A DNA stretch of 26,738 nt from a virus. Both the position numbers and the translations under genes were made by a program. Under the pieces are notes generated by a model. It worked only from the letters and a program-made list of their open reading frames with translations, had not been told where the DNA came from and searched no databases. Location of the stretch: the IMG/VR virus record IMGVR_UViG_3300042691_009454, positions 1 to 26,738 of that record, one strand, 5' to 3'. This document shows, in pieces, positions 3,455 to 23,802 of the stretch. The stretch's first letter is position 1; the number at the start of each line of letters is the position of its first letter.

Positions 3455-4240
3455 ATGAGCGATGATGCTCCTAAACTAGCGGATGTGCCCGCGCCGGAAC
3501 TGGAAACCACGGCGGCTCCAGAACCCGTAGAAATCGAAACGCCGGAAGAGCAGCCTGTCGAACAGGAAGCGTCCAAGACCTTCACTCAGGAAGAACTTGA
3601 CGCGATTGTCGGCAAGCGTCTTGCAAGAGAGCAACGCAAGTGGGAACGCGAACAGGCTCAACGTATTGCGGAGCAGCAGGCCCGGCAACAGCCGACCGAC
3701 ATCGCCCCGGAGCATTTTGAGACCTATGAGGATTACGCAGAGGCTCTGGCCGAACGTAAGGCTCAGGAATTGCTGGCTCGCCGCGAAGCGGAACAGCAGC
3801 AGCGCGCGTATCTCGAAGCCTATCACGACCGTGAAGAGGTGGCGCGGGACAGGTACGACGACTTCGAGCAAGTCGCCTACAACCCGAACCTCCCCGTGAC
3901 GGAAGCGATGGCTCGGGCAATCCAAGCGTCTGAGATCGGCCCCGACGTGTTGTATCACCTAGGGAGCACTCCGAGCGAAGCCGCACGCATTTCGCGTCTT
4001 GACCCTATCTTGCAGGCTCGGGAAATTGGAAAGATCGAAGCGAGGCTCTCTGCCGAACCTTTGGTCAAGAAAACGTCCAACGCCCCGGCACCGATTGCTC
4101 CTGTCACGGCTCGCTCCAATGGGGCGCCGCGGTATGACACCACCGACCCTCGCTCGACCAAGTCGATGAGCACGTCGGAATGGATCGAAGCGGAACGGCT
4201 GCGGCAGATCAAGAAGTACGAGGCACAACGCAACCGCTAA
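3455..4240 (+). CDS. capsid scaffolding protein
   Basis: 261 residues, highly charged and helical. The N-terminal 45 residues are acidic and Pro/Glu-rich, followed by FTQEELDAIVGKRLAREQRK and a long coiled coil rich in Gln, Glu and Arg (about 45-130). The C-terminus is basic (IEAERLRQIKKYEAQRNR), as in scaffolds that bind coat protein through a basic helix-turn-helix. FTQEELDAIVGKRLARE is a common beginning in phage scaffold proteins. The coat gene follows 15 bases later, the classic order. The protein should fill the procapsid core, guide coat assembly and then leave. No protease motif is seen, so exit without cleavage, as in P22, is likelier. Confidence 0.85.
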   Translation: MSDDAPKLADVPAPELETTAAPEPVEIETPEEQPVEQEASKTFTQEELDAIVGKRLAREQRKWEREQAQRIAEQQARQQPTDIAPEHFETYEDYAEALAERKAQELLARREAEQQQRAYLEAYHDREEVARDRYDDFEQVAYNPNLPVTEAMARAIQASEIGPDVLYHLGSTPSEAARISRLDPILQAREIGKIEARLSAEPLVKKTSNAPAPIAPVTARSNGAPRYDTTDPRSTKSMSTSEWIEAERLRQIKKYEAQRNR

Positions 4241-17038: not shown

Positions 17039-18332
17039 TTTTCAACTCCTCAATCGCTGTGTCGGACACGGCGCGCTTGTCGTGCAGCGCCGCCCAGATG
17101 CGTTCATCAATCGTCTTTTCCGTCAGCATGACGTAAACCCAAACGTCGCGCGTCTGCCCGCTGCGGTGCAGGCGCCCGACTGCTTGTTCGTAAAGTTCTA
17201 GGCTCCACGGCAGCGACAAAAACACCATGTGCTGCTGGCCTTGTAAGTTGATCCCGTGACCAAACGATTTAGGGTGCGCGGCCAATAGCTGTATCTCGCC
17301 CTTGTTCCAGCGCTCGACGACGTTTTCGTCGTCAGGCGTCTGGATGTGCGGATAGCGCCGGCGCAGTTCGGCCAGTTCTTCCTGATAGGTGTACCAGATC
17401 AGCGTATTGGCCCGCTGGTTTTCGTCCAGCAGTTCTTCCAGCCGGTCGAACTTGTGCGTGCTGAACCAGTGCACCGGCAGCGGCCCCTCGCGGTTGTAGA
17501 CGAAGCCCGACGCCATCTGTTGCAGCTTGGTCGTCACCGACGCGGCGTTCTGCGCGATGACGCGGTCTTCGCCGAACCGGGCGACGTAATCACGCTTCAT
17601 CTTCTCGTATGGCTCGCGGTCGTCCAGCGTCGTGCGGACCTCGACGACATGGCACGGCGGCAGCCGGTCCTTGTACTCGCCCGGCTCCAGCACGTAGGTG
17701 GCCGGCCGGATGCGCTGCATGACCTGCTCCAGCGCGCCGGGCGCGGGCGTCCACTGACCGAAGTCGCGGTTGATGCAGATGAAGTACTGCTGGAGGAACG
17801 CGCCCTTCGACCGGCCAAGCAGCGACTGGTCCACGATCTTGCACTGGCCGAACACGTCCTCAAGGCCGTTCGACGTGAACGACCCGGTCAAGCCCCAGCG
17901 GACCTTGACCGGCTCCAGCAGCTTCTCCAGCGCCTTGAAGCGCTTGCCCGACGGGTTCTTTAGCCGGGTCAGTTCGTCGAACACGATCCCGTCGAAGCCG
18001 GTCAGGTCGTCCAGCTTGTCGAGGTTGTCGTAGTTGATGACGACGACCGGCGCTTGGCCGGCCAGCGCCGCCTGCCGCCGGCTGGGGGCGCCGACGGCCA
18101 GCGCCGGCGTCAGCCTCGACCACTTCGGCGCTTCGACCGGCCACACGTCAGTGCAGACGCGCTTGGGTGCGACGACCAGCCAGCGCTTGACGTGACCGTC
18201 GTCCAGCATCGCCTGCATCGCGGTTAGGGCAATCATCGTCTTTCCCGCGCCAACTGACGCCAAGATCATCGCGCGGTCGCGTTCATACAGGAAGTCAATA
18301 GCTTCCTCTTGGTAAGGCCGTGGTTTAAGCAT
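17031..18332 (-). CDS. SNF2-family DNA helicase/ATPase
   Basis: 433 residues from ATG 18332 (MLKPRPYQEEAIDFLY); a GTG 15 bases upstream is possible. Helicase superfamily 2 motifs appear in order: Q-like PYQ at 7-8, Walker A ASVGAGKT at 25-32, FDEL at 118-121 (motif II), LTGS (motif III), and QAVGRLHRSGQ at 383-393 (motif VI) with both arginine-finger-type Arg residues. The spacing and the HRSGQ form are those of SNF2 translocases encoded in many phages beside VRR-NUC. It is a minimal version with no extra DNA-binding domain. It likely moves on duplex DNA during replication or recombination. The HNH gene is inserted directly upstream and the two genes overlap by 8 bases. Confidence 0.92.
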   Translation of the reverse strand: MLKPRPYQEEAIDFLYERDRAMILASVGAGKTMIALTAMQAMLDDGHVKRWLVVAPKRVCTDVWPVEAPKWSRLTPALAVGAPSRRQAALAGQAPVVVINYDNLDKLDDLTGFDGIVFDELTRLKNPSGKRFKALEKLLEPVKVRWGLTGSFTSNGLEDVFGQCKIVDQSLLGRSKGAFLQQYFICINRDFGQWTPAPGALEQVMQRIRPATYVLEPGEYKDRLPPCHVVEVRTTLDDREPYEKMKRDYVARFGEDRVIAQNAASVTTKLQQMASGFVYNREGPLPVHWFSTHKFDRLEELLDENQRANTLIWYTYQEELAELRRRYPHIQTPDDENVVERWNKGEIQLLAAHPKSFGHGINLQGQQHMVFLSLPWSLELYEQAVGRLHRSGQTRDVWVYVMLTEKTIDERIWAALHDKRAVSDTAIEELKSG

Positions 18333-18816
18333 GGCGGGCGAACTCACCGTGCAGTTCCGCGCGTATTTTAGCGGCCGCTTCAGTTGCTTCTTCTATCGTT
18401 TCGTAGCACCCGAAATGGCGCGTTTTACGGCCTACGGAAAAGCGAACCTGCCATCTGCCTTGATGGGGCGCGACATTTTTAACACCGGTCTTGCTGCGGC
18501 GGTTAGCGCGCCTATTGTGTTGGTTTTGCAGCCGTGTGGCCGCCCTAAGATTTTCAGCGCGATTGTTGCTAGGGTTTCCGTCGATATGGTCAATACAGTC
18601 GGGCCGATAGCCTTGCGTTAATAGAAACACGACGCGATGAACCGCGTAGTGCTTGCGTCGCCAAGTGACATAGGAATACCCGAACGGGTCTGGCGCGGTA
18701 GCTACAATATCGCCGGGGCGCTTTACCGAGACGCCGCGGCCGGCCTTCACCTTCCAATAGAGTTGGCCGTCACGGTATCCCCACACGTCAAAAACTTCAG
18801 ACCAATCACTTGTCAC
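18325..18816 (-). CDS. HNH homing endonuclease with AP2-like C-terminal domain
   Basis: 163 residues from GTG 18816, chosen because GGAGG lies 6 bases upstream. HNH_3 core: VHRVVFLLTQG (H60), CIDHIDGNPSNNRAENL (D76, H77, N90). The C-terminal 111-157 (GVKNVAPHQGRWQVRFSVGR, FGCYETIEEATEAAAKI) is an AP2-like DNA-binding domain. The N-terminal 55 residues (DGQLYWKVKAGRGVSVKRPG, then GYSYVTW) are the usual leading module of this class. The gene overlaps the VRR-NUC stop by 11 bases and the helicase start by 8, so it is inserted between the two with translation preserved. Its codons are AT-richer than both neighbours, a sign of recent acquisition. Confidence 0.92.
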   Translation of the reverse strand: MTSDWSEVFDVWGYRDGQLYWKVKAGRGVSVKRPGDIVATAPDPFGYSYVTWRRKHYAVHRVVFLLTQGYRPDCIDHIDGNPSNNRAENLRAATRLQNQHNRRANRRSKTGVKNVAPHQGRWQVRFSVGRKTRHFGCYETIEEATEAAAKIRAELHGEFARHA

Positions 18817-20538: not shown

Positions 20539-21195
20539 ATGAGTGAAGTCGTAAAGTTTGCCGGCGCCAACCTGCCGTCGGTCAAGTCGCTGTCGTCGGC
20601 GCTGCGCTCGATTGAGGCAGATGTCGGTGGCCCGAACGGGATGGTCATCCTGAAGATGGACAAGACCGGCCACTGGGTGTTCGGCGCAGACCAGACCGAA
20701 GTCGAGGATGACAGCATCTGGGCGGTCAATCCGTTCTCGTTCGTCCACGGCTTTATTGCGTGGGGCGAAGGCACCGTGCTGGCCGAGAAGATGGCGCCGG
20801 TGCAAGACCCGCTGCCGGAAACCGGGCCGGCGCCGGAAGGCGCCAAGCGCGGCTGGGAAATGCAGGTCGGCATGTCGCTGGCATGCACCAACGGCGAAGA
20901 CGAAGGGATGCAGGCCCGCTACACCGTCACGTCGGTGGGCGGCAAGAAGGCCGTGCAGGCGCTGGCTATTGCCATCGCCGAACAGGTCGATGCCAACCCC
21001 GAGAAGCCGGTGCCGCTGGTGCGCCTGAAGAAGGAGCACTACCAGCACAAGTCGTACGGCCGTATCTTCACGCCGGTGTTCGACATCACCGGCTGGACTT
21101 CGCTCGACGCCAGCGCGGCGCCCGAACCGGAGCAGGACGGCCCTGACGCTGAAGAAACAACCGAAGAAGCCCCGCGCCGTCGGCGCCGCGGTTAA
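20539..21195 (+). CDS. probable ssDNA-binding protein (DUF2815 position)
   Basis: 218 residues. The ATG has AAAGG 9 bases upstream. The middle is beta-rich (GMVILKMDKTGHWVFGADQT, NPFSFVHGFIAWGEG, YGRIFTPVFDITGW) and could form an OB-like fold. The C-terminus is acidic (EPEQDGPDAEETTEEAP), as in many single-stranded DNA-binding proteins, but ends in a run of Arg and Gly (RRRRRG). The place between DUF2800 and DNA polymerase is where phages of this type usually encode DUF2815, an ssDNA-binding family. I do not see a decisive family signature, so the assignment rests on position, tail and fold impression. Confidence 0.65.
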   Translation: MSEVVKFAGANLPSVKSLSSALRSIEADVGGPNGMVILKMDKTGHWVFGADQTEVEDDSIWAVNPFSFVHGFIAWGEGTVLAEKMAPVQDPLPETGPAPEGAKRGWEMQVGMSLACTNGEDEGMQARYTVTSVGGKKAVQALAIAIAEQVDANPEKPVPLVRLKKEHYQHKSYGRIFTPVFDITGWTSLDASAAPEPEQDGPDAEETTEEAPRRRRRG

Positions 21196-21297
21196 TCGGT
21201 AAGCGAAAGCCGGGGCACACTTTTGGGTGAAGGCGGTCAGCACCGCTGTCAATCGAACCTCAAGGCCCCGGTGAGTAGCGGTTGAAGTGAGGCAACC
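21196..21297 (+). promoter_or_regulatory. structured leader of the DNA polymerase gene
   Basis: 102 non-coding bases with nested base pairing. A 7-bp stem CCGGGGC (21210-21216) and GCCCCGG (21265-21271) encloses a hairpin GCGGT-CAGC-ACCGC (21233-21246). After it, a third hairpin (21279-21298) covers the polymerase ribosome site. No open frame and no T-run is present, so this is neither a gene nor an intrinsic terminator. A cis-acting RNA or small RNA is the best reading. Confidence 0.6.
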
Positions 21298-21298
21298 G
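21279..21298 (+). promoter_or_regulatory. hairpin enclosing the ribosome site of the DNA polymerase
   Basis: A 6-bp stem CGGTTG (21279-21284) and CAACCG (21293-21298) around an eight-base loop AAGTGAGG that carries the GAGG Shine-Dalgarno. The last paired base is the first base of the GTG start. This resembles the translational operator hairpin of T4/RB69 DNA polymerase (gp43) in concept, although that polymerase is of another family. It could allow self-regulation or binding of another protein. Confidence 0.6.
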
Positions 21299-23289
21299 TG
21301 ACGATACTCTGGCTTGATTTCGAGACGCGGTCGCGCTGCGACCTGAAAAGCAAAGGCGTCTACAACTACGCGATGGACGCCAGCACCGACGTGCTGTGCA
21401 TGTCCTACGCCTTCGATGACGAAGAGGTGCGGACGTGGCTGCCAGACCAGCCTTTCCCGCAAGCCGTCGCCAACCACAAGGGCCAGATACGCGCGCACAA
21501 CGCCGCGTTCGAGCGCCTGATCTTCTGGTACGTGCTCCAGATCGACTTCGACCTTGAGCAGTTCTACTGCACCGCGACGCAGGCCCGCGCCAACTGCGCG
21601 CCGGGCAGCCTTGAGGATGTCGGCCGCTTCGCCGGCGCTGGGATGCGTAAGGACCACCGTGGCAGCCAACTCATTCGGCTATTGTCGATCCCGCAGGCTG
21701 ATGGCACCTTCCGCGAAGACGCTGACCTGATGGATGAGATGGTCCGCTACTGCGAACAGGATGTGCGGGCCATGCGGGCGATCAGCAAGGCGCAGCGGGA
21801 GTTGTCGGGGGATGAACTGCACGACTATCACGTTAACGAGCGTATCAATGACCGCGGTGTCCTGCTTGATAAACCTCTGGCTCTGGCGGCGGTGCGCTAC
21901 GCAGAAGCGGAAGCTGTCGAGATACAGGGCATCGTATGCGAAGTTACTGAAGGCGTGGTCACGTCGGTCCGCAGCCCGAAAATGCGGTCATGGGTTCTCG
22001 ACCGCGTCGGTCCGGAAGCCCTGAAGTTGGCCACCGTTTACAAGGACGGCGAAGCGAAGCTATCCATTGACAAGAACGTGCGCGCCAACCTGCTGGCGCT
22101 GGTGGAGGAGAACGCCGATGAGGTGCCGGCTGAAGTGGCGGAAGTTATCCAGTGCGCGGATGATCTCTGGGCCTCGTCCGTTGCGAAGTTTAGTCGCGCC
22201 GCAGCGCTTGCTGATGAGGAGGATAGCCGAGTTAGAGGAGCGTTTGTATTTGCAGGAGGTAGCGCTACTGGCCGCGCTTCATCATATGGGCTTCAGCTCC
22301 AAAATTTCCCCCGCAAGTGCGCCGACGACCCTGCATTAGTTCGTCAGGCTTTGGTGCGCGGGCACCAGATTGTTCCGCAGTTCGGCAAGCGCGTCACGGA
22401 CGTGCTAAAAGGAATGCTTCGGCCGTCCCTTATGGCACCTGCCGGCCGCGCGTTTGTCGTGTACGATTGGTCTTCAATCGAAGCCCGCGTCAACCCGTGG
22501 TTGTCCACGCACCCTTCGGCGCAAGACGTGCTCGACGTGTTTGCCGGCGGTCGCGACATTTACTGCCGCGAAGCGGCCGCTATTTTTCGGGAAAACGAAC
22601 TCGACATTTTGCGCGAGTACGAGGAAACCGGAAAGTCAGACCGTCGCCAGCAAGGCAAGGTGGCAATTCTCGCGTGTGGGTTCTCGGGGGGTGTAGGCGC
22701 CTTCGCCGCTATGGGCCGAATTTATAATGTTATTTTGCCTGAAAGCGATGCTTTGCGCACTGTTCAAGCGTGGCGCAGGGCTAACCCTTGGGCGCCATAC
22801 TTCTGGTCCAAGCTGGAAAACGCATACATGGCAGCTATGCGCAACCCCGGAAAAGAGTTCACCGCGGGGCGTGTAACCTACCTATTTGACAAGCAGCACC
22901 TTTGGTACGCCCTGCCAAGCGGGCGCATTCTTTGCTACCCCTTTGCTCAGTTCGACGACGAGGGCAATCTGACGTACGCCAAAGCGTCATGGAAGCCGTC
23001 CGCCGACGCAAAGGAATGGCCGCGGGGGCGCTTGTGGAAAGGGTTGGCCTGTGAAAACGTCGTACAAGCCACGGCGCACGATATTTTGCGCAGCGCTTTA
23101 CGCCGATTAGACGCCGAAGGGTTTGCAACCGTAGGCCACATACATGACGAAATTATTGTCGAGTGCGATGAAGCTGACGCCGAGCAAACTGCACGGCGGG
23201 TCCATCAAATAATGACGGAAAACCCGTCGTGGGCGACTGGATTGCCTCTTGCCGCCGAAGGCAAAGTAATGTTACGGTATGGCAAATAA
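21298..23289 (+). CDS. family-A DNA polymerase with 3'-5' exonuclease
   Basis: 663 residues from GTG 21298. Exonuclease: D7 and E9 (WLDFET), AHNAAFER (motif II), YCEQD (motif III). Polymerase: motif A VVYDWSSIEARV (D390), motif B RRQQGKVAILACGFSGG (R449, K454), motif C HIHDEIIVE (H616, D617, E618). All catalytic residues are present, with no 5'-3' exonuclease domain, as in T7-type replicases. By alignment from K454, the residue matching E. coli Phe762 is Leu458, the Leu type reported to be common among environmental phages. The first 300 codons are GC-ending; from about 22190 to the stop the codons are AT-richer, like the HNH gene that follows. This suggests replacement of the palm/fingers half by recombination. 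Confidence 0.96.
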   Translation: MTILWLDFETRSRCDLKSKGVYNYAMDASTDVLCMSYAFDDEEVRTWLPDQPFPQAVANHKGQIRAHNAAFERLIFWYVLQIDFDLEQFYCTATQARANCAPGSLEDVGRFAGAGMRKDHRGSQLIRLLSIPQADGTFREDADLMDEMVRYCEQDVRAMRAISKAQRELSGDELHDYHVNERINDRGVLLDKPLALAAVRYAEAEAVEIQGIVCEVTEGVVTSVRSPKMRSWVLDRVGPEALKLATVYKDGEAKLSIDKNVRANLLALVEENADEVPAEVAEVIQCADDLWASSVAKFSRAAALADEEDSRVRGAFVFAGGSATGRASSYGLQLQNFPRKCADDPALVRQALVRGHQIVPQFGKRVTDVLKGMLRPSLMAPAGRAFVVYDWSSIEARVNPWLSTHPSAQDVLDVFAGGRDIYCREAAAIFRENELDILREYEETGKSDRRQQGKVAILACGFSGGVGAFAAMGRIYNVILPESDALRTVQAWRRANPWAPYFWSKLENAYMAAMRNPGKEFTAGRVTYLFDKQHLWYALPSGRILCYPFAQFDDEGNLTYAKASWKPSADAKEWPRGRLWKGLACENVVQATAHDILRSALRRLDAEGFATVGHIHDEIIVECDEADAEQTARRVHQIMTENPSWATGLPLAAEGKVMLRYGK

Positions 23290-23304
23290 CTTGTGAGGTT
23301 TGCT

Positions 23305-23802
23305 ATGGCCTTGTCGGCAGAAAGATTGAAGCAACTGCTGGATTACGACGCGCGTACCGGTGAGTTCTATTGGTTGAACACCAAAGGCCGAGCTAAAGCC
23401 GGCAAACGCGCCGGCGGGACCGATGCCTACGGCTACCGTGTAATTCGCGTGGATGGTGTCCTCTATAAGGCGCACCGCTTGGCATGGCTTTGGTGTTACG
23501 GGCGCTGGCCGGACGGATTGCTAGACCATATTGACCGCACGAAAAACAACAACAGCATAGAAAATCTGCGCGAGGTGTCGCAGTCAGAAAACATGCACAA
23601 CGCTAACAAGCGCAGCAAAAGCGGCGTGCCGGGCGTGCGCTGGCGCGAAGAAAGGCGTCGATGGGTCGCACAAATTCGTGTCGGATACCGCAACCATGTG
23701 ATAGGCTCTTTCGCCACTAAGAACGAAGCCATAGCGGCGCGGCGCGCGGCGGAGAGAAACATGGTTTCTTCAATCTATAAAACGGGAGCAAGCGATGAGT
23801 GA
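23305..23802 (+). CDS. HNH homing endonuclease with AP2-like domain, after DNA polymerase
   Basis: 165 residues from ATG 23305, with GAGG (23295-23298) 6 bases upstream; a GTG at 23293 is not needed. N-terminal module (RLKQLLDYDARTGEFYWL), HNH_3 core AHRLAWLWCYGRWPDGLLDH with H57, D74 and H75, then NNNSIENLREV with N87. A C-terminal AP2-like segment at 107-152 (GVPGVRWREERRRWVAQIRV, GSFATKNEAIAARRAAE) should bind DNA. It lies 15 bases after the polymerase stop and overlaps the primase start by 8 bases, a compact insertion between two essential replication genes. Its composition matches the AT-richer half of the polymerase, so both may have arrived together. Confidence 0.93.
   Translation: MALSAERLKQLLDYDARTGEFYWLNTKGRAKAGKRAGGTDAYGYRVIRVDGVLYKAHRLAWLWCYGRWPDGLLDHIDRTKNNNSIENLREVSQSENMHNANKRSKSGVPGVRWREERRRWVAQIRVGYRNHVIGSFATKNEAIAARRAAERNMVSSIYKTGASDE

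Follow-up and report, generated by a model that had tools for sequence, protein, structure and literature searches.

The 26,738-base virus contig analyzed here, referred to as the window, carries a replication block in the order DUF2800 nuclease, 218-aa protein, family-A DNA polymerase, HNH endonuclease and DUF5906/primase. Two HNH_3 endonuclease genes flank this block (18325–18816 on the minus strand and 23293–23802 on the plus strand), the second of them lying between the polymerase and the primase-like gene. The leader separating the 218-aa gene from the polymerase folds into a compact element with the following parts.

20539–21195, + strand: putative ssb-type gene, 218 aa; its stop codon (21193–21195) anchors the leader element
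21203–21204, + strand: 5' strand of P1 (GC), pairing with 21278–21279; the G-C pair is invariant, and the other is C-G, U-G or U-A in relatives
21205–21208, + strand: GAAA, one strand of a bulged-G-like internal loop; GAA invariant in 51 aligned leaders, fourth base covarying with 21273
21209–21216, + strand: 5' strand of P2, from covariation
21232–21247, + strand: inner hairpin within the P2 loop (21232–21237 with 21242–21247), from the fold; window-specific
21265–21272, + strand: 3' strand of P2, from covariation
21273–21277, + strand: GAGUA, opposite strand of the bulged-G-like loop; AGUA invariant, with a separate check in class D
21278–21279, + strand: 3' strand of P1 (GC); C21279, and in the fold G21278 too, is in addition a partner of the start codon within the extended P3
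21279–21298, + strand: P3 hairpin, arms 21279–21284 and 21293–21298, loop 21285–21292 with GAGG at 21289–21292
21298–23289, + strand: family-A DNA polymerase (PF00476, E 2e-16; phrog_17), GTG start with its first base in P3

The 218-aa protein has no match in a Pfam search. Its sequence runs through an acidic stretch into an arginine-rich C-terminal tail, RRRRR (both within 21150–21195). The structure model (pLDDT 77) gives weak, OB/SSB-like matches, to the phiC31 RDF at Z 7.4 and the RB69 gp32 core at Z 5.0, further structural neighbors being SSBs at Z 4.3 and below; the top Foldseek matches are also mostly SSBs, at E 0.03 or worse. Judged by this model, the gene upstream of the leader is probably of ssb type.

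The window core begins 9 nt past the stop codon of this gene. An earlier note on this DNA had described two stems and an inner hairpin in the leader, and all three are present. The 7-bp stem (21210–21216 with 21265–21271) belongs to the GC-rich P2, which a G21209-U21272 pair extends to 8 bp. The 6-bp hairpin with GAGG in its loop and the first base of the start codon in its stem is P3, where G21298 of the GTG is paired, the loop counts 8 nt and the fold adds a G21278-U21299 pair. The inner hairpin also appears in the window fold, but it is peculiar to the window and not conserved, and the most conserved part of the leader, the GAAA/GAGUA internal loop, was absent from that description. P3 had further been thought to hide the ribosome site. 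It does hold the SD, though in its loop, where the SD is constrained but unpaired. In GUG-start leaders such as that of the window, P1 and the start-codon-clamping end of the extended P3 use the same GC, so that sequence and folds suggest the two to be alternatives.

In a shuffle test (200 shuffles), the window leader folds better than 198 (z -2.4) and the core better than 200 of 200 (z -3.1); P3 alone has a z of -2.6, and the 135-nt fold that includes coding bases a z of -1.4. Two candidate readings of the window fold were rejected. Pairing of GAGUA (21273–21277) with the polymerase codons AUACUC (21308–21313) in a long fold occurs only in window-like sequences (the window and L003) and is not kept elsewhere, and an intrinsic terminator lacks the T run after its GC stem.

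Conservation and covariation in related leaders

A scan of viral contigs yielded 80 relatives of the polymerase (67–82% identity), and pattern scans added more, resulting in a merged set of 86 distinct leaders with the core (classes A and B) from public contigs. Pattern matches L086–L088 lack the stems and were set aside as chance. The leaders share a layout in which the ssb stop is followed by an often G-rich stretch, GC, GAAN, P2, NAGUA, GC and the rest of the leader, and the core starts 7–12 nt after the ssb-type stop codon in 86 of 86. Across 51 aligned leaders, hardly any change is seen in GAA, in AGUA or in the G-C pairs flanking them, in contrast to a variable P2; the P2 loop differs in both length and sequence (48 nt in the window, 4–12 nt in most relatives). 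The GAAA/GAGUA internal loop reads as a bulged-G (sarcin-ricin or loop E) module, with GAA facing AGUA and Watson-Crick closure on both sides, a likeness seen at the level of sequence only. Such a module is a recurrent 3D motif rather than a family and would here be a building block.

Covariation was judged against a phylogeny-preserving null, made by replaying the substitutions on the tree while assigning them to random positions. For the structural pairs of the core the scores add up to 196, as against a null maximum of 46. The five top-scoring column pairs overall all lie in P2, and the sixth joins two non-Watson-Crick partners in the internal loop (A.G, C.U and similar). In a count of pair changes, 94% of cells are paired with 74 two-sided changes, a number that none of 500 shuffles attains and from which slid controls stay far away on the low side.

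The compensating changes by which the earlier note had proposed to check its stems are strong in P2 and clearly weaker in P3, whose best single pair has an E of 0.0016 within the structure pairs and of 0.11 when all pairs are considered, with no other P3 pair significant alone. In an alignment of 58 leaders, five of which have irregular loops and were aligned by hand, all five P3 pairs are kept in 49. About seven pairing-preserving two-sided changes can be placed on an independent tree of the ssb protein, with GGAUG/CAUCC changing to GGUUG/CAACC twice and to AGAAG/CUUCU, GAAAG/CUUUU in L198 and GGUG/CACC in L016 and L039. RNAalifold recovers P1 and P2 from the same alignment and misses P3, because the loop register shifts between clades. 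P3 is weak in one large clade (-2.4 to -3.4 kcal/mol) and absent in others; in the AGAAG clade, at about -3 kcal/mol, any damping would be mild. An alternative in which the G run upstream pairs with the 3' arm of P3 fits GGGUGC/GCAUCC and was rejected, as no covariation across leaders is visible by inspection.

On the ssb tree the presence of the core requires seven changes, indicating that it is old and was lost or replaced several times. Where relatives lack it, a simple GC hairpin often takes its place, and in L034, where the core is lost, a hairpin GGUUU-CUGGGCGGGG-GAACC still stands before the AUG (by inspection). Searched with the class A/B model, 23 of 25 records each show a single copy per genome that is strong and of full length.

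Neither the open-access literature searched nor a DNA search of named phages with the leader returned the element. Rfam (15), at the gathering threshold and at E up to 10, holds no match to class A/B or to the longer class D described below beyond a sub-threshold one to the Pseudomonadales-1 RNA (RF03046). The two agree letter for letter in the strands CGAAAGCC / GGUGAGUAGC that enclose a stem; at 12 bits versus a gathering threshold of 68 (E 5.9), and with the rest of the model misfitting, this candidate was rejected.

Other folded leaders occupy the same junction in further contigs: a multi-hairpin form in L064 (about 3880–4000), a long closed form with AAGCCAG/CUGGCUU in L092 and L097, and, behind the ssb stop of L050 and L054, a stem with a GAU/AGA loop. 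Rfam gave no match at the gathering threshold for those scanned among them.

Neighboring genes and the ribosome site

The polymerase is not a constant partner of the leader. Another gene follows the core in about 19 of the 86 leaders, with P3 intact in about 13 of those, and where the polymerase sits further down, its own start is ordinary and without such an element. The earlier note had suggested that the leader might be an operator of the family-A polymerase or a target of the neighboring ssDNA-binding-like protein. What holds of the operator reading is a conserved, covarying leader with a hairpin at the ribosome site before the polymerase; the element itself stays with ssb and does not require the polymerase. 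Five relatives (L072, L077, L096, L098 and L099) keep the polymerase without the stems or any comparable structure at the junction, an outcome that the earlier note had itself named as refuting its reading and that speaks against an obligatory polymerase operator. The element is not a polymerase operator as such, and the operator reading is weakened. The tail of the ssb-type protein, acidic and then RRRRR and thereby unlike classic SSB tails, is found in practically all relatives and is retained even where the core is lost.

The slot between the ssb leader and the polymerase is an insertion site for DNA-modification-type genes (L017, L021, L027, L037, L041, L190, L199, L201, L221 and L223). 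Genes inserted before the polymerase encode C5 and N6/N4 DNA methylases, a radical-SAM QueE-like protein, a PTPS/QueD-like protein, a candidate queuine tRNA-ribosyltransferase-like DpdA and, by eye, a PAPS-reductase-like protein.

The position of the SD relative to the hairpin differs between leaders. An SD between core and start is missing in 12 leaders, and 10 of these carry a GGAG-type SD between the ssb stop and the core, compared with 1 of 61 others (Fisher p 1e-9, a value that ignores kinship; there are only 2–3 independent contrasts, in about three lineages). Part of this reciprocity is trivial, as no gene can do without a start site. In the class B leaders concerned, the linear SD-start spacing of 55–60 nt becomes 10–16 nt with the hairpin looped out. 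L060 has neither an SD nor P3.

A split ribosome site with a hairpin between SD and start is described for T4 genes 25 and 38 (PMC3014915). The class B leaders (L053, L055, L080, L193, L196, L199, L200 and L051) resemble it in that the intervening hairpin shortens the effective SD-start spacing, and in 10 class B relatives the SD lies upstream of the hairpin with none between. The window differs from this arrangement: its GAGG lies downstream, in the P3 loop, and pairs with the anti-SD at -7.2 kcal/mol (P3 itself being worth about -9 kcal/mol), whereas the stretch upstream of the core pairs weakly (-3.1). What sets the present hairpin apart from those of T4 is that its internal loop is invariant and that diverse phages carry it downstream of ssb-type genes.

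The longer form, class D

Class D shows the layout P1 of about 4–6 bp, GAAA, GC, GGAUG, P2, ACGCA, GC, GAGUA and P1'. It was collected by an exact 23-base core pattern, so that part of the invariance of its core stems from the search itself. The pattern matched at least 120 viral contigs, and 117 distinct copies were analyzed. The matches of a 16-base control pattern that leaves GAA and AGUA free divide sharply into 42 with (G/A)AAA plus AGUA and 53 without. Nearly all of these 42 have P1 and P2, and the control supports conservation of the class D core. P1 and P2, which lie outside the search pattern, display 100 two-sided changes, as against none of 500 shuffles reaching this number and slid controls of at most 31. 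Exactly one copy is present in each of 25 larger phage records. A tandem of three class D copies (60.7, 53.3 and 18.7 bits) was seen at L261:2756–2992.

The core lies 7–17 nt past a stop codon in 85 of 99 class D elements, with a peak at 9–13. Among 80 upstream proteins scanned, 18 match the SSB families phrog_7364/18154, 6 are gp2.5/Enc34-type ssDNA-binding proteins and 5 are of the window type; a few others are SSB, DUF669 or endonuclease VII, and the tallies may overlap. The share of ssb genes is estimated at about 1 in 50 phage genes, from which chance would give one or two. Many class D elements sit behind genes not recognized as SSB, and the genes downstream are mixed. Most of the latter have an ordinary open SD, for which looping-out is unnecessary. 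Fourteen start 12–17 nt after GAGTA without a downstream SD, 12 of them also without an upstream one, and starts of this kind would suit coupling across a looped-out hairpin.

Class D occupies the ssb/polymerase junction in eight polymerase relatives (L056, L057, L059, L061, L063, L065, L071 and L076). The window agrees with it in core and position (GAAAGC / GUGAGUA versus GAAAGC / GCGAGUA, one U for C that leaves a G-U pair) but has a continuous P2 and a 2-bp P1 instead of the second internal loop GGAUG/ACGCA and the 4–6 bp P1. The class D model, R2, finds no match in the window at E 0.1, which makes the window a divergent relative and not a class D member. The two forms appear to be akin: they sit at an orthologous junction, flanked by the same pair of genes, and have the GAAAGC/GCGAGUA core in common. 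No class D match was obtained in MW202483, the nearest annotated polymerase relative, or in six phages with related ssb genes. In bacterial genomes, R1 matched 0 of 148 and R2 3 of 399, one of them decent (35.7 bits, L374, in a GC-rich context), the empty results carrying little weight.

Several class D loci have features of their own. The genes upstream in L266, L276, L283, L288, L314 and L323 form a family of 310–340 aa with a CxxC-type stretch and an acidic DWDDE tail, which looks SSB-like; phrog_27714/23155 have 7 matching members each in this family, and its structure model is poor (pLDDT 41). PDB sequence searches with two protein profiles gave no match. A second conserved-looking block, UAAUACGCC-AGCCGG-AGUGGCG-AGUAAC-CCGGC and possibly a pseudoknot, stands right after class D in L254, L255, L270 and L273. 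An unrelated int-alpA RNA (RF02996), just above threshold, lies near an ssb gene carrying class D (L371:8470–8534, minus strand).

Possible modes of action

What is known of cis-acting RNAs in phages comes chiefly from model phages, those of T4 type among them. The present element is compact and covarying, occurs once per genome in more than 100 uncultured phage contigs and is attached to a functionally coherent class of genes. It is likely a new RNA family for annotation and offers a testable handle on how phages set the levels of SSB and polymerase.

We consider the chances about even that the leader is an intercistronic cis-acting RNA behind ssb-type genes that tunes translation of the following gene. 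The core would form a rigid hairpin with a bulged-G-like loop, placed only a few nucleotides downstream of the ssb stop codon. By being looped out of the stretch from ssb to the next start, it would govern ribosome access to that start, whichever gene the start belongs to, and tune the hand-over from a terminating ribosome. In some relatives the hairpin would bring an upstream SD near the start, and in the clade of the window P3 would keep the SD in its loop and damp initiation of the next gene, here the polymerase. GAAA/AGUA is conserved more strictly than a simple spacer would require, which counts against the looped-out model. The strict conservation of the internal loop in sequence argues for a reader, either a protein or the ribosome. 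A broader hypothesis, which we put forward tentatively, is that of a single undescribed RNA family across unrelated phages, placed directly behind ssDNA-binding genes as a switch of the replication module. Its double internal loop would be read by a protein or the terminating ribosome and set expression of ssb and its neighbor; in the GUG-start subgroup, competition of P1 and P3 would create a two-state switch.

The reader might also be the SSB itself, as T4 gp32 acts on its own leader (PMC3014915). Free SSB would bind the hairpin behind its own gene and alter translation or decay of ssb or the next gene, a possibility that we regard as rather improbable. This analogy would agree with the link of a structured RNA to a phage SSB gene, with the SSB-family, Enc34/gp2.5-like and window-type proteins upstream of class D, with the RRRRR end of the window-type protein, and with the observation that bulged-G modules often bind proteins (PMC7247131). 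The gp32 site, however, is a pseudoknot that precedes gene 32 itself, whereas the present element lies downstream of the ssb stop. One RNA would have to be recognized by several SSB families without relation to each other, the genes upstream of many class D elements are not identified as SSB, and relatives without the core keep the RRRRR tail. Strict placement behind the stop codon and the tie to the upstream, not the downstream, gene would also be expected of a signal in the ssb mRNA for 3' protection or processing, a stable hairpin that stops 3'-5' decay after cleavage and raises ssb output; the high stability of the hairpin and the plain GC hairpins of many core-less relatives fit as well. 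Such a signal leaves the invariant internal loop, P3 and the reciprocal SD placement unexplained, and we deem it unlikely.

Autogenous control by the family-A polymerase, in analogy to T4/RB69 gp43, is highly improbable. The element does adjoin the polymerase in most close relatives with the ribosome site in P3, and like the gene 43 operator it is a hairpin upstream of the start of a phage DNA polymerase. Yet gp43 is a family B enzyme with an operator of conserved hairpin loop features (PMC3014915); here no loop like -UAAC- is conserved, the P2 loop being variable. The element moreover stays with ssb when genes intervene, relatives of the polymerase do without it, and class D is present in phages where different genes lie downstream. 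That the structure arose by chance in compact GC-rich intergenic sequence of no further function is barely credible: the modest z of the 135-nt fold would fit, but covariation in two independent sets and the control search with free core ends stand against it.

In one contig (L090:4880–4990), the leader runs directly into a polymerase gene that lacks about its first 17 codons, and translation would then begin at an ATG within the arm of P3.
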